56,886 nucleotides of DNA from Clostridiales bacterium (GTDB taxonomy: Bacteria > Bacillota > Clostridia > Tissierellales > GPF-1): the NCBI GenBank assembly GCA_013619125.1, contig JABXKS010000052.1, positions 1-56,886 on the forward strand. The letters run 5' to 3'. Below are positions 12,555 to 48,458 of this stretch, in pieces. Every line of letters begins with the position of its first letter. Position 1 is the first letter of the stretch. A model generated the notes under the pieces. It saw only the letters and a list, made by a program, of their open reading frames with translations, searched no databases and had not been told where the DNA came from. The translations under genes and the position numbers were made by a program.

Positions 12555-13803
12555 ATATGAATTAGTAGTTGTTGGCGGAGGTCCTGCCGGGCTGTCTGCA
12601 GCCGTTGAGGCATACGAGCAAGGTGTTCGTAAGATATTGATTTTGGAACGCGATAAGGAATTGGGTGGCATTTTGAATCAGTGTATCCATAATGGCTTTG
12701 GCCTTCATCGATTCAAAGAGGAATTGACTGGACCGGAATACAGCCGTCGCTATATCGATATGTTGGATGAGACAACGATTGAAATCTTGAAAGAGACCAT
12801 GGTATTGGAGATTTCAGAGACAAAAGTTGTTCGCGCCATCAGCGCGGAGCGTGGATATATGGAGATTGAAGCGGAAGCCATTGTCTTCTCCATGGGTTGC
12901 CGGGAAAGAACGAGAGGCGCCATTCAATTGCAGGGCGACCGTCCATCGGGTGTATTTACGGCGGGAACAGCGCAACGCTTTATCAATATGGAAGGCTATA
13001 TGCCAGGAAAGCGTGTTGTGATTCTGGGTTCCGGCGATATCGGATTGATTATGGCGCGCCGCATGACATTGGAAGGCGCCAAGGTGGAAGCGGTCTGTGA
13101 ATTGATGCCATATTCCAACGGCTTGACAAGAAATATTGTACAGTGCTTGGAAGATTACGATATTCCGCTGATGCTTTCCCATACCGTTGTCAAGGTGCAT
13201 GGAAAGTCTCGTGTGGAGGGGGTCACCATCGCGAAGGTGGATGAAAACCTACGCCCGATTCCAGAGACATTCCAGCGAATTGATTGCGATACGGTCTTGT
13301 TGAGCGTCGGTTTGATTCCAGAAAATGAGATTACACAAAACGCGGGAATTATGGTTGATACTAGAACCAACGGACCAAAGGTCGGCGAGCTTCGTCAAAC
13401 GGAAATGCCGGGCGTATTCGCTTGTGGAAATGTGGTTCACGTTCATGACCTAGTGGATTTCGTAAGCGAAGAGGGCGCGCTTTCAGGCCTGGGCGTTGCG
13501 AAATACCTGAAGGGCGAGTTGGAAACGGCAAGCAACTTTACAACAGCCAATGGCGACGGAATCGGATATGTGGTGCCGCAGACGGTAACCATGTCCAATG
13601 TGGATGATCAGGTGACCTTCTATATGCGTGTCCGCAGTGTATATGATCGCCATATTGTTCGCGCTTACCAGGGAGACACCCTGGTTGCCGAGAAAAAGGA
13701 GCGCAAGTTCCTGCCAGCTGAGATGGTGAACTTCAAGATCAAAAAAGATGTGCTGGCGAATTTGGGAGATGGCGAAATTCGATTCGTTGTCGAGGAGGTA
13801 TAG
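12547..13803 (+). CDS. FAD/NAD(P)-dependent oxidoreductase, partner of the GlpA-like protein
   Basis: This 418-aa pyridine-nucleotide-disulfide-type oxidoreductase has an N-terminal FAD motif GGGPAGLSAAVEA and a second dinucleotide site, GSGDIGLIMARR, near residue 166. The late segment PGVFACGNVVHVHDLVDFVSEEG ends in the usual FAD-contact region. It begins inside the end of the upstream gene (8-nt overlap, GAGGTGG as ribosome binding site), so the two are co-translated. It likely transfers electrons between the GlpA-like flavin/Fe-S unit and NAD(P)H or a membrane acceptor (inference). Confidence 0.85.
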   Translation: MLKYELVVVGGGPAGLSAAVEAYEQGVRKILILERDKELGGILNQCIHNGFGLHRFKEELTGPEYSRRYIDMLDETTIEILKETMVLEISETKVVRAISAERGYMEIEAEAIVFSMGCRERTRGAIQLQGDRPSGVFTAGTAQRFINMEGYMPGKRVVILGSGDIGLIMARRMTLEGAKVEAVCELMPYSNGLTRNIVQCLEDYDIPLMLSHTVVKVHGKSRVEGVTIAKVDENLRPIPETFQRIDCDTVLLSVGLIPENEITQNAGIMVDTRTNGPKVGELRQTEMPGVFACGNVVHVHDLVDFVSEEGALSGLGVAKYLKGELETASNFTTANGDGIGYVVPQTVTMSNVDDQVTFYMRVRSVYDRHIVRAYQGDTLVAEKKERKFLPAEMVNFKIKKDVLANLGDGEIRFVVEEV

Positions 13804-33233: not shown

Positions 33234-34979
33234 ATGAGTGAAATGGTGAAAGCGACCATTAATGGAAAATCGATCGAGGTTCCTCAAGGAACAACGATCT
33301 TAGATGCAGCAAAAACGATGAGTATTGACATTCCAACACTATGCCATTTGAATCTTCATGATTTTGGCATCGTAAACAAAGTGGCTTCTTGCCGTGTTTG
33401 TGTGGTAGAAGTGGAGAATCGTCCGGCTTTGATGCCATCATGCGCCACTGAAATTACGGAAGGCATGAATGTCAAGACGCATACGGCACGCGCCGTACAA
33501 GGAAGAAGAACCGCTTTAGAGCTATTGCTTTCTGATCATCCGCAAGATTGTCTGTCTTGTGCGAAGAACCAGAATTGCGATTTACAGTCTCTTGCGGGAG
33601 AGATGGGCATTTTGGATATCCGATATGAAGGCGAAAGTCTAGAGTATGAAAAAGATATTTCAAGTGCCTCTTTGGTACGTGATCCCAATAAATGCATCAT
33701 GTGCCGACGTTGTGAAACCATGTGCAACGAGGTTCAAACATGTGGGATTCTTTCCGGTGTAAACCGTGGATTCGATTCCTTTGTGGGAACAGCGTTCAAT
33801 CTGCCTTTAAATGAAACGTCATGTACTTATTGCGGTCAGTGTTTGGCGGTATGTCCGACAGCGGCCATCTCGGAGAAGAACAATATTTCCGAGGTATGGA
33901 ATTCATTGTTGGATCCAACAAAACATGTTGTGGTACAGGTGGCGCCAGCGATTCGTGTTGCAATTGGAGAAGAATTTGGTATGGAGCCAGGCACATTGGT
34001 TACTGGACAATTGGCGGCAGGTCTTCGCACCATGGGATTTGACGGCGTGTTCGATACAGACTTTGCGGCTGACTTGACGATTATGGAAGAGGCAAGTGAA
34101 TTGGTTCACCGCATTCAGTCCGGCGGACCGCTTCCGATGTTGACTTCTTGTTGCCCGGCATGGGTGCGATTTATCGAGGCGAATTATCCGGATCTTCTTG
34201 ATATTCCTTCGACTTGTCGATCACCGCAAATTATGTTTGGTGCCATTGCGAAAACCTATTATGCAAAGAAAAAGAATATCAAGCCTGAAAATATGACGGT
34301 GATTTCTGTGATGCCTTGTGTGGCGAAGAAAACAGAAGCCGAGCGACCAGAATTGGTAAGTGCAGGCGAGTCAGATGTCGATTTCGTGTTGACTACTCGC
34401 GAATTGGCGCAGATGTTCAAGATTGCAGGAATTAACTTTACTGAGCTTCCTGAAGAGGACTTCGATGATGTTTTGGGCGCGTCAACAGGTGCGGCGGTTA
34501 TCTTTGGTGCGACAGGTGGTGTAATCGAGGCGGCAACCCGTACTGCATACGAATGGATTACCGGCGAAGAACTTGAAAAAGTTGATTTCCAACAGCTTCG
34601 CGGCATGGAGGGAATTCGATCTGCTTCTGTCGATATCGGAGATTTAACCTTAAATATTGGAATCGCTCATGGTCTTGGAAATGCGAGAAAATTGCTCGAC
34701 GATATTCGAGCAGGCAAGTCGAATTTCCATGCGATTGAGATTATGGCATGCCCCGGCGGATGTATTGGCGGCGGTGGACAACCATATCATCATGGTGATT
34801 CTGAGATTATCAAAAAGCGTGCGGAAGCGATTTATCGCGAAGATGCGGGCAAGAAAATTCGATCATCTCATAAGAACCCGCAGATCGTTGCTTTGTACGA
34901 TGAGTACCTTGGAAAACCATACGGTGAGAAGGCGCACAAGCTTCTTCATACGACATACAAAAAACGAGATAAGATTTAG
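33234..34979 (+). CDS. hydA: [FeFe] hydrogenase catalytic subunit
   Basis: This 581-aa hydrogenase has an N-terminal [2Fe-2S] domain (Cys37, 53, 56, 70) and a His-ligated [4Fe-4S] site in DHPQDCLSCAKNQNC (about residues 101-115). Two [4Fe-4S] clusters follow (CIMCRRCETMC, CTYCGQCLAVCP), then the H-cluster domain: TSCCPAW (304-310), MPCVAKKTE (360-368) and MACPGGCIGGGGQP (504-517). Cys306 is the expected proton-shuttle cysteine; Cys307, 362, 506 and 510 bind the H-cluster. HydE, HydF and HydG maturases are not in this window. A hairpin array and a terminator follow. Confidence 0.97.
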   Translation: MSEMVKATINGKSIEVPQGTTILDAAKTMSIDIPTLCHLNLHDFGIVNKVASCRVCVVEVENRPALMPSCATEITEGMNVKTHTARAVQGRRTALELLLSDHPQDCLSCAKNQNCDLQSLAGEMGILDIRYEGESLEYEKDISSASLVRDPNKCIMCRRCETMCNEVQTCGILSGVNRGFDSFVGTAFNLPLNETSCTYCGQCLAVCPTAAISEKNNISEVWNSLLDPTKHVVVQVAPAIRVAIGEEFGMEPGTLVTGQLAAGLRTMGFDGVFDTDFAADLTIMEEASELVHRIQSGGPLPMLTSCCPAWVRFIEANYPDLLDIPSTCRSPQIMFGAIAKTYYAKKKNIKPENMTVISVMPCVAKKTEAERPELVSAGESDVDFVLTTRELAQMFKIAGINFTELPEEDFDDVLGASTGAAVIFGATGGVIEAATRTAYEWITGEELEKVDFQQLRGMEGIRSASVDIGDLTLNIGIAHGLGNARKLLDDIRAGKSNFHAIEIMACPGGCIGGGGQPYHHGDSEIIKKRAEAIYREDAGKKIRSSHKNPQIVALYDEYLGKPYGEKAHKLLHTTYKKRDKI

Positions 34980-34980
34980 G

Positions 34981-35101
34981 CCAGGGTATTGTCGAAGACA
35001 ATGCCAAGCCCCGGGTATGCCGAAGGCATGCCAAGAAGAGCCCGGGCTTGCGTTAGCAAGCCAAGCTGCCAGGGTTAAGGTTTGCTAGGGTATTCCGCAA
35101 G
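34981..35101 (+). repeat. Hairpin repeat array, part 1 (3' end of the hydrogenase transcript)
   Basis: Short hairpin units have constant flanks CC(A/G)GGG and GCCAAG and variable stems. Unit 1 is at 34981-35008 (ATTGTC-GAA-GACAAT), unit 2 at 35011-35035 (ATGCC-GAA-GGCAT) and unit 3 at 35042-35065 (GGCTTGC-GTTA-GCAAGCC). A degenerate or truncated stretch at 35069-35101 contains CCAGGG, TAGGGTATTCCGCAAG and no matching right half. The outer GG...CC pairs and a T-G or C-G pair close each stem. Stop codons and the absence of a ribosome site argue against coding. Confidence 0.85.
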
Positions 35102-35138
35102 TGAAAAAAAGAGTCTCACGATTATGTGACAGATTATT

Positions 35139-35170
35139 AAAAAAGTCCCGCAAATTAGCGGGACTTTTTT
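35139..35170 (+). terminator. Terminator of the hydrogenase operon
   Basis: AAAAAGTCCCGC-AAATTA-GCGGGACTTTTTT is a strong symmetrical hairpin that could act in both directions. It lies inside the hairpin array, about 160 nt after hydA. Confidence 0.92.
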
Positions 35171-35195
35171 CATGTCTTCCATTGACAGATATGAT
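35167..35195 (+). promoter_or_regulatory. Possible promoter of mnmA
   Basis: TTTTCA (35167-35172) and TATGAT (35190-35195) are 17 nt apart. Alternatively TTGACA at 35182-35187 serves as -35 with TATCAG (35203-35208) at 15 nt. Either would place the second half of the hairpin array in the mnmA leader. Confidence 0.5.
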
Positions 35196-35207
35196 ACCAT
35201 GGTATCA
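35192..35207 (+). promoter_or_regulatory. Perfect 16-bp palindrome over the mnmA promoter
   Basis: TGATACCATGGTATCA is a perfect palindrome overlapping the likely -10 and transcription start. It has the form of a dimeric repressor operator. I do not recognise the regulator family. Confidence 0.6.
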
Positions 35208-35219
35208 GGGATTTTTCGC

Positions 35220-35344
35220 CCAGGGTTTGCCGAAGGCATGCCAAGAGCAAGCCAAGCCCCGGGCATTCTGTAAGGAATGCCAAGCCAGGGTATTGTCGAA
35301 GACAATGCCAAGACAGGCCAGGGTATTCTGCAAGGAATGCCAAG
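35220..35344 (+). repeat. Hairpin repeat array, part 2 (leader of mnmA)
   Basis: Four further units of the same family are at 35220-35245 (TTGCC-GAA-GGCAT, one mismatch), 35259-35284 (GGCATTC...GAATGCC), 35285-35312 (identical over 28 nt to unit 1) and 35318-35344 (GGTATTC...GAATGCC). An isolated right half AGCAAGCCAAG lies at 35246-35256. The last unit ends 6 nt before the mnmA ribosome binding site, so folding could affect mnmA translation. Confidence 0.85.
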
Positions 35345-35363: not shown

Positions 35364-36455
35364 ATGAAAGCAAAAAACGAGACGCGAATCGTCATCGGAA
35401 TGTCCGGCGGAGTAGACTCCTCGGTCGCCGCTTATCTCTTGCAAAAAGAGGGGTATGACGTGATCGGCGTATTTATGAAAAACTGGGAAGAAAAAGATGA
35501 AGATGGGCATTGTACAGCCCTGGAGGATTTTGAAGACGTGGTGGAGGTTTCTGAGAAACTGGAGATGCCTTACGAGCTTGTAAATTTTGAAAAAGAGTAT
35601 TGGGACCGGGTATTCACCTATTTTCTGGATGAATACAAGCGGGGACGAACTCCGAATCCTGATGTGATGTGCAACAAGGAAATTAAATTCAAGGCATTCT
35701 TGGAGCATGCAGAAAGCATGGGAGCTGATTTTATTGCCATGGGGCATTACGCTGCTACGGATATAAAAGATGACAAGCATCGATTGTTGCGCGCCAAGGA
35801 TCTCAACAAGGATCAGAGTTATTTTCTCTGTGGGCTGAATCAATCGCAGGTTTCCAAGGCGATTTTCCCTTTGGCGGAAATTACGAAACCTGAGGTGCGG
35901 GTAATTGCGGAAGAATTGGAGTTGTCTACGGCGAAGAAAAAGGATTCGACGGGAATCTGTTTTATTGGCGAACGAGACTTCAATGCCTTTTTGGATCGAT
36001 TCTTGCCGGCGCAACCGGGAAAAATAGTGACATTAACTGGAGAAGTGATGGGGGATCATGAGGGTCTCTTGTATTACACAATCGGTCAGCGAAAGGGTTT
36101 GGGGATCGGCGGAAAAGGGTCGGGCGAGCCATGGTTTGTCATCGACAAGAATCTAGAGAATAATGAATTGATCGTGGTGCAAGGCAAGAATAATCCCTTG
36201 CGGTTTAAATCAGCTTTGGAGGCGGAACAGGTCTCTTGGATCGCCGATGAGCCGCCAGCGGAATTCTTCACATGTACAGCGAAGTTCCGATATCGACAGC
36301 CCGATCAAGGGGTGGATGTACGCCGGATTGAAAATGATCGATGGTTGGTGACCTTCCATGAGAAACAAGCGGGTATCGCGCCGGGGCAGATTGTCGCTTT
36401 TTATGATGAGCGTGTCTGTCTGGGCGGAGGCATCATTGACTTTGCGATCGAATAG
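35364..36455 (+). CDS. mnmA: tRNA-specific 2-thiouridylase
   Basis: MnmA adds sulfur to C2 of wobble uridine-34 in Lys, Glu and Gln tRNAs using ATP and persulfide from a cysteine desulfurase. The 363-aa enzyme has the PP-loop MSGGVDSS at residues 13-20, catalytic Cys103 in [12 protein letters not shown], and Cys199 in [12 protein letters not shown]. The start is ATG 35364 after AAAGGAAG; an in-frame ATG at 35277 would run through the hairpin repeats and is rejected. iscS-like genes, frequent neighbours, are absent. Confidence 0.95.
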
Positions 36456-47635: not shown

Positions 47636-47834
47636 GTGACCACCAAAGACGCACCGCATCAGCCAAAGATGCGCTAGCGTGTCTTTGGCTGATGTGGTTG
47701 TGTCTTGAGCGGGCGCATGAAGTGCGAACGCCCTGAGGGTGGTCACAGAGTGAACACATGCAAACCAAACGCACGGGGTGTGGACGTGAGGACACACAGA
47801 GTGTGTGATGAACAAAGAGGGATGCACGGGGCAT
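47636..47834 (+). repeat. Structured hairpin-rich intergenic region between rodA and a membrane-protein gene
   Basis: The 336-nt gap 47571-47906 holds a dense set of inverted repeats. GTGACCACC (47636-47644) and GGTGGTCAC (47738-47746) close a domain. Inside, 47653-47698 folds into a 22-bp hairpin with three G-T pairs and centre CGCTAGCG, and GGGCG...CGCCC encloses CGCA-TGAAG-TGCG. Following are TCAC-AGA-GTGA, CACAC-AGA-GTGTG and ATGC-ACGGG-GCAT. Several units begin TGAG and end GAAC. The sequence is GC-rich against AT-rich flanks. No ribosome site or coding signal is seen. The remaining gap (47571-47635 and 47835-47906) is AT-rich without a clear promoter. Confidence 0.8.
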
Positions 47835-47906
47835 GTGAGTGAGAACGAGCAGCAACGATAAAAAATTGATTTAAATAGCGTAGAACATTCAAGCTAGGAG
47901 AGCGTA

Positions 47907-48458
47907 ATGCATATAAAAAATGATCATAAAAAGAAACAATCGAAGATAGGAGTATTTTTTATTTTAGTGGGCTTTTTCTTGATCTTTTTCCAGTACTTCT
48001 TTGTCTATACGATCAATGAAAATGATATCAATCAGTATATGAGTCAACGAATTAGCAATGTGATCGAGGACGTAGATATCAAGATAGATGTCATTGATCA
48101 ACTTCGAACGGAATATGGTTTGGTTGTTCTTTTTCAAACAAATGTAGAGGAAAAGCCGATTGGATACGCGGTCTTTGAGAAAGATGCGATTTTTAACCGA
48201 TACGTAAACGAGGACTTTGCGCTGTATAACAATAGAATCACTCACAATTTGGATACGGATGTACTTGTTGACTTGAATTGCGGGTATGTGTTTCAATTTG
48301 TTGATGATAAGATTGTAGTCGTCAATACGCAACCGATGAATAAACCGTTGATCAAATACTATATTTTGATAGTGATAGCAATCCTTGCGATTGCCTATGG
48401 GTTTGTCATTCGACGGAGGAAACGGGGAATAATTAGCAAGCATGATGAGAAAGGCTAA
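47907..48458 (+). CDS. Hypothetical two-helix membrane protein, AT-rich
   Basis: This 183-aa protein has a lysine-rich start, a first transmembrane helix (about residues 14-35), an external domain of about 110 residues, a second helix (about 148-166) and a basic tail RRRKRG. The external part contains YMSQRISNVIEDVDIKIDV and a single Cys in DLNCGYVF. No known family is recognised. Base composition is clearly more AT-rich than its neighbours, and it follows the hairpin-rich region, so horizontal origin is possible. TAGGAGAG precedes ATG 47907. Confidence 0.65.
   Translation: MHIKNDHKKKQSKIGVFFILVGFFLIFFQYFFVYTINENDINQYMSQRISNVIEDVDIKIDVIDQLRTEYGLVVLFQTNVEEKPIGYAVFEKDAIFNRYVNEDFALYNNRITHNLDTDVLVDLNCGYVFQFVDDKIVVVNTQPMNKPLIKYYILIVIAILAIAYGFVIRRRKRGIISKHDEKG

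Follow-up and report, generated by a model that had tools for sequence, protein, structure and literature searches.

The window, a stretch of 56,886 nucleotides from a Clostridiales bacterium, contains a row of short hairpin repeats in the spacer between hydA and mnmA, which encode an [FeFe] hydrogenase and a tRNA 2-thiouridine synthase, respectively (Table 1). The units form two blocks, 34981-35065 (with remnants to 35101) and 35220-35344. The first block has the hydA stop codon on one side and a terminator-like hairpin on the other; the second is bounded by a promoter-like palindrome and, on its 3' side, by the ribosome-binding site of mnmA. By eye, the two blocks flank rather than interrupt a terminator- and promoter-like core that is present in all three genomes of the genus, namely the source genome (G000, a 130-contig draft) and the other two, G001 and G002, the latter a single contig. 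A sequence-only reading had reported seven intact units of 24-28 nt together with truncated ones at 34981-35344; the number, the coordinates and the remnants agree with our analysis and the sizes are corrected to 25-28 nt.

Table 1. Features of the hydA-mnmA spacer and its flanking genes (positions in the window).
Feature	Position	Strand	Basis
hydA, [FeFe] hydrogenase group A6, upstream gene	33234..34979	+	ORF; NCBIfam NF040763, 902.3 bits versus cut-off 765
Hairpin unit A1.1, 9-bp stem, GAA loop; hydA stop codon 1 base 5'	34981..35008	+	
Hairpin unit A1.2, 8-bp stem, GAA loop	35010..35035	+	
Hairpin unit A1.3, 7-bp stem, GTTA loop	35041..35065	+	
Degenerate/truncated units, CCAGGG at 35069 and CTAGGG at 35085	35069..35101	+	By eye; not called by the covariance models
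Intrinsic-terminator-like hairpin of the hydA transcript, common to 3/3 genomes	35139..35170	+	Inverted repeat; spacers compared by eye
TTGACA and 16-bp palindrome TGATACCATGGTATCA, putative mnmA promoter/operator	35183..35207	+	By eye
Hairpin unit A2.1, GAA loop on an 8-bp stem containing one T-T mismatch	35220..35245	+	
Orphan 3' half-unit; with the 35220 unit gives a 7-bp stem GGTTTGC/GCAAGCC	35246..35257	+	
Hairpin unit A2.2, GTAA loop	35258..35284	+	
Hairpin unit A2.3, identical in sequence to A1.1	35285..35312	+	
Hairpin unit A2.4, GCAA loop; last before the mnmA ribosome-binding site	35318..35344	+	
mnmA, tRNA 2-thiouridine synthase, downstream gene, ATG at 35364	35364..36455	+	NCBIfam NF001138, 475.6 bits versus cut-off 284

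Each unit consists of C-N-(A/C)-G, a stem that opens with GG and closes with CC, and a final AAG. Unit sizes over all loci range from 25 to 31 nt, with stems of 7-9 bp and 0-22 nt between units within blocks, or one or four identical bases in the regular arrays. The loops in the window had been described as mostly GAA or TGYAAG; both are present, GTTA occurs as well, and TGYAAG can equally be read as a GYAA tetraloop closed by a T-G pair. The left flank, previously given as CC(A/G)GGG, is actually CC(A/C)GGG (the A/G pattern matched only four of the seven units), and the right flank GCCAAG holds in all seven window units. Stem sequences are variable and the unpaired flanks are conserved: the foot C-N-(A/C)-G / AAG recurs throughout 26 unit rows, apart from two decayed 3' sides (AGG and ATG) and one row that starts with T and is one base shorter. 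A T-run directly 3' of the stem, as in an intrinsic terminator, is absent from these rows, as AAG or a decayed AAG follows the stem in 26/26. CsrB-like sponge RNAs carry GGA in exposed loops; this triplet is found in the loop of none of 19 distinct units and spans the loop/stem junction in four of them (G000.A2.2, A2.4, B.1 and G002.B.1). An extension of the outer stem was considered and rejected: two units gain four or five extra outer pairs, but the excess of pairing outside the unit is weak over the 26 rows (mean 0.65 pairs versus 0.39 in shuffles; 227/5000).

The whole hydA-mnmA spacer, terminator hairpin included, folds with a z score of -7.1 relative to shuffled sequences. A simple terminator scan of this spacer returned no terminator, so the hairpin at 35139-35170 is without scan support; a promoter scan returned a single site (35167-35195) with no above-chance signal, and the promoter reading of 35183-35207 is likewise unsupported by the scan. 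TTGACA and the palindrome TGATACCATGGTATCA also occur upstream of mnmA in G001 and G002, with one palindrome base changed, and look like an operator over a promoter. Read together, positions 35220-35256 form a mismatch-free stem of 7 bp (one of its pairs being T-G) with a long loop; since the 35220 unit can pair in this way with the orphan half-unit, the two may be a single recombinant unit. Open reading frames cross the blocks on both strands. A coding reading was rejected, as only 4/26 within-block start-to-start steps are divisible by three and the region is absent in G001. The adjacency of palindromic units to promoter-like sequence would also suit double-stranded sites for a palindrome-binding protein, either cruciform or operator-like, but the stems show no sequence conservation and their departures from Watson-Crick pairing are almost all G-T, which is unexpected for a duplex site; we consider this explanation highly improbable.

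A covariance model (R1) built from eight units of G000, with which the best 150 of 1028 first-look candidates were scored, yielded in that genome nine units at two loci and two weak matches; weak copies may have been missed with this proportion of candidates scored. The weak matches, at C45 and C18 (E values of 0.40 and 6.8), had no feet by eye and were judged to be chance. The second locus, which a looser pattern first revealed, consists of two sense units at C80:90080-90139, flanked by genes for an ABC permease and for an iron alcohol dehydrogenase, whose families are assigned through their orthologues in G002. A broad pattern, GGGYN{9,22}GCCAAG, matched at least 140 places versus 157 for its backward control and was useless as a count, though it revealed the second C80 unit. 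In G002 there are 22 model matches at E<=0.01, distributed over three loci. The hydA-mnmA spacer contains variants beside nine identical 28-nt units that recur every 32 nt; the other two loci are the permease/iron alcohol dehydrogenase spacer and a VTC/DUF4956 spacer, whose units have a 29-nt period. The nine identical copies indicate recent tandem expansion. Overall, units begin one base 3' of a stop codon (hydA, ABC permease) or seven bases 3' of one (VTC gene), or lie in the mnmA leader.

A second model (R2), made from G002 units, recovered all nine G000 units (7/7 in the window and 2/2 at C80) with E values of 3.6e-14 to 8.5e-3 in 89.7 kb, a test that is not wholly independent because the G002 units had been chosen with R1. 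Three further R2 matches were inspected individually, the other listed matches falling at E values of 0.07-0.7. That in G001 (L125, E 0.004) has no full hairpin, that at L129 (E 0.04), the one other match listed in the 89.7 kb, is without flanks and that at L128 (E 0.015) has no feet. L128 of G002 carries at 12896-12916 (minus strand) the hairpin GGTATTGTAAAACAATACC, with A-rich flanks and a stem that resembles the family but without the feet. At L034 3600-3700 of G002 (minus strand), a hairpin that has the family foot (CAAGGG...CCAAG) and an additional outer stem of 5 bp lies 3' of five tandem units, and the DNA beyond it looks repetitive. Across 297,899 bases taken from the three genomes, a generic motif (foot, at least six mismatch-free pairs, AAG) matched 35 times, 29 times in the arrays and six elsewhere.

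The sequence-only reading had named many intergenic copies as a sign of a new repeat family. Further copies exist, as the second G000 locus and G002 demonstrate; many they are not, given nine units at two loci in G000, 22 model matches at three loci in G002, no model match in G001 at E<=0.1 and none at E<=0.001 in the other 246 of 249 genomes of the order, where each genome had a capped number of candidates scored (the best 30 in the search of the order). Among the HydA matches listed, which come from the plasmid collection only, the nearest with a name is that of Acetoanaerobium noterae, 65% identical, and the 11.7 kb around its gene contain no unit. Among one genome each of 84,980 species, a set that may omit near relatives, the pattern CAGGGTATTN{4,10}AATGCCAAG, which arrays with other stems would escape, matched 68 stretches once each, with ~52 expected by our own estimate; R1 gave a second, weak match in four of these stretches (E values of 0.013 to 0.7), and we read the pattern matches as chance, with no array. 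The exact consensus had no match in viral contigs and the gapped consensus had nine single matches there, one with a second weak match. Phage and plasmid records contained nothing matching the G002 array, and the best 20 of 29 matches in an earlier plasmid search were to mnmA.

At the two orthologous spacers shared by G000 and G002 the blocks persist, and units in corresponding positions differ in their stems; in the mnmA leader, for example, the first unit has TTTGCC/GGCATG in G000 and TATTGTT/AACAATA in G002. The G001 orthologues of both spacers are contiguous and empty of units, its hydA-mnmA spacer retaining only the terminator and promoter-like core, from which it follows that the hairpins are dispensable there. 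For the DUF4956 protein encoded at the third locus in G002, a search run without a positive control, which shows little, found no match in G000 or G001. Over 54,580 shared columns, G000 and G001 are 84.3% identical, compared with 81.1% for G000-G002 and 82.0% for G001-G002; over 12,069 columns at the second locus the values are 84.8, 80.7 and 79.9%, respectively. A nucleotide tree of hydA and hydB with Acetoanaerobium as outgroup also places G000 and G001 as sisters (UFBoot 90), at odds with a protein tree, which groups G001 with G002 (73). A sister relation of G000 and G001 would mean that the two shared spacers either lost their units in G001 or gained them twice. Elsewhere in the window, ~640 bases with a 183-residue ORF (47816-48457; ORF 47907-48458) have no counterpart at the corresponding site of G001 and align for the most part in G002.

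Base pairing was assessed in 19 distinct units, comprising 18 sequences from 31 model matches and one unit seen by eye (L035 3889-3915); the window remnants at 35069-35101, the half-unit at 35246-35257 and a decayed unit at L033 4228-4254, which has G-T, A-C and T-G pairs beside four Watson-Crick pairs, were left out. The earlier claim that stems differ with pairing preserved is well founded: 158 of the 159 core pairs are Watson-Crick (139) or G-T (19), none is A-C, in a count that treated G-T and A-C alike, and the single exception is the T-T pair of the unit at 35220. An A-G pair in G002.A2.2 is outermost and lies outside the counted core. Pair 3, described at first as a fixed G facing T or C, is indeed T-G or C-G in most units, with T-G kept in 15/19, but the G is not fixed, as two G002 units have T-A. 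The proposed strand-specific G-T pairing is upheld by the excess of G-T over A-C (19 versus 0), with the limits that pair-3 T-G is largely common by descent, that the remainder, four G-T versus no A-C with pair 3 set aside, is a small number, and that the uncounted L033 unit has one A-C beside two G-T pairs.

Covariation was measured in an alignment of 31 rows (18 distinct) that is fitted to the model, which favors pairing, and by three of the five measures used it is above what shuffling or sliding the structure gives. Paired cells amount to 91.5% versus 75.6% in shuffles, cells with two-sided changes to 15 versus 4.9 and the covariation score to 0.347 versus 0.129 (0/500 shuffles in each case), and slid structures give at most one cell with a two-sided change. 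The number of pairs with a two-sided change (4 versus 3.0; 149/500) and of further pair types (9 versus 7.7; 124/500) is not above that of shuffled alignments. Folding favors the sense strand, both by energy and by z score, in the four blocks covered (sense/antisense z of -4.4/-3.2, -3.7/-1.3, -5.4/-2.1 and -2.8/-2.5), a set that does not contain the large G002 hydA and VTC blocks. The units themselves are sense-oriented in each of the four blocks that make up the three loci, for which our own arithmetic gives p = 0.125 by chance. The structure therefore looks, from its sequence, to be kept on the sense strand and as a single strand.

Pairing of this kind could in principle arise without selection if slippage multiplied tandem palindromes and template-switch (quasi-palindrome) repair kept their arms complementary. 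The nine identical G002 copies and the presence of truncated, decayed and perhaps recombinant units are in keeping with such a process, and the absence of units from G001 argues against a strong need for them. Correction of the arms, however, should erase the pair-3 T-G that 15 of the 19 distinct units retain; A-C pairs are absent from the same units, and the constant unpaired flanks would go unexplained. We regard this neutral origin as rather improbable.

Several known systems offer comparison. CRISPR arrays consist of near-identical short repeats separated by unique spacers of regular size; our units resemble them as short palindromes repeated in a row and differ in that the stems vary and the intervals are 0-22 nt within blocks, or one or four identical bases in regular arrays. 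Rfam gave no match above the gathering threshold in the window or in six loci, and of 14 weak matches (E values up to 5), all but one lie across the terminator (13 matches, best E 0.018), the other (E 2.5) falling over the second block. No named repeat family was thus found to fit, as the sequence-only reading had it, and literature searches of partial coverage turned up no account of this hairpin repeat among the records listed.

REP sequences and REPINs associated with RAYT (TnpA-REP) are described as mostly intergenic hairpins of 20-40 nt that often lie 3' of genes, have conserved bases at the hairpin foot and in some cases occur in tandem clusters (PMC3733652, PMC6006769, PMC3116915); REPs are defined by a tag in the foot, either GTAG (GT[AG]G) or CGTC (PMC3733652, PMC6006769). 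The present units, 25-31 nt palindromes between genes, share these general traits, and also the compensatory stem changes described for REPINs (PMC3116915). They differ in their feet, which are C-N-(A/C)-G and AAG and bear neither tag, in their low copy number (nine units in G000 and 22 model matches in G002, at two to three loci) and in being direct repeats with free stem sequence. The Efa and Ype stem-loop repeats lie near gene 3' ends, are plausibly transcribed and were suggested to be mRNA stabilizers (PMC1590033); position and plausible transcription are shared with our units, but they are reported as larger than REPs, in contrast to the tandem units of 25-31 nt with covarying stems seen here. 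Hairpin elements of sponge and fungal mitochondria are likewise tiny and intergenic, give multiple hairpins by tandem insertion and are often confined to related species (PMC2800124), as the bacterial units are; the sponge elements described there have conserved stems and variable loops, whereas the bacterial repeat has variable stems and constant flanks.

These parallels raise the possibility of a selfish mobile hairpin similar to REPs or IS200 ends, in which the constant C-N-M-G of the 5' foot would be recognized as single-stranded DNA on one strand, units would be copied or excised as such and UTRs would merely tolerate them. Similar units separated by dissimilar spacers (periods of 29 and 32 nt), the conserved unpaired flanks and the empty state of both shared loci in G001, which would require clean loss or double gain if G000 and G001 are the sisters that their identity suggests, all fit, and for REPINs both compensatory changes in the hairpin and excision seen in sequencing reads are described (PMC3116915). 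The arrays are, however, direct and tandem rather than inverted doublets, are limited to two or three loci per genome, lack the GTAG/CGTC tag and are not accompanied by a Y1 transposase: PF01797 exceeds its cut-off in 0/3 genomes, G000 being a draft. The sole sub-cut-off candidate is a 245-residue Y1_Tnp-like ORF in G002 (L117 1060-1797, minus strand; 21-22 bits versus a cut-off of 23), at a distance of over 300 kb from every array. It adjoins an ORF that by eye resembles thioredoxin reductase, seems by eye to have lost the histidine pair of the HUH motif and may be a domesticated relative. We consider a mobile hairpin of this type possible but doubtful, though the weightiest of the alternatives to our preferred reading. 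A further reading, in which the 28-nt unit would be a minimal mobile hairpin that spreads unit by unit and is cleanly lost, using a system other than RAYT/IS200 or an RNA intermediate and requiring only the feet and foldability, appears unlikely to us. The sequence-only reading had left the choice between an RNA hairpin under selection and a mobile palindrome; the repeat family, the covariation and the strand preference that it relied on are confirmed, and the two alternatives are not fully separable by them since strand-specific single-stranded DNA would yield the same G-T bias.

On sequence grounds, this is a real structured repeat family, so far in one genus, and falls within bacterial hairpin repeats, a broad class already known. 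From the copies, their positions, covariation and orientation, and their presence or absence, all of which are direct observations, we infer maintenance for a single-stranded sense function, most likely in mRNA. The reading that we tentatively prefer, at somewhat short of even confidence, is that of a small genus-restricted hairpin family that may be maintained because its sense strand acts as a single-stranded structure, most likely within messages. It draws on the positions 3' of stop codons, the sense orientation of all four blocks and the sense-strand wobble pairs. The rows of units occupy stretches that resemble untranslated parts of transcripts, on the sense strand; a row of stable hairpins 3' of a stop codon or 5' of a ribosome-binding site could slow exonucleases or guide processing and in this way set the relative stability of the neighboring messages. 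Units would multiply locally by tandem duplication or slippage and recombination, and would occasionally seed a new spacer. The conserved unpaired flanks, which a simple stabilizer does not need, count against this reading, as do the G001 spacers without units.

Were the hairpins only a local stabilizer, they would be a modest addition to the known bacterial repeat families. They nevertheless provide 19 different hairpins with constant feet in one compact natural series, in matching spacers of relatives and with empty-site controls, so that two general questions become open to test: do UTR hairpins arranged in rows tune the genes beside them, and can tiny palindromes spread without RAYT?
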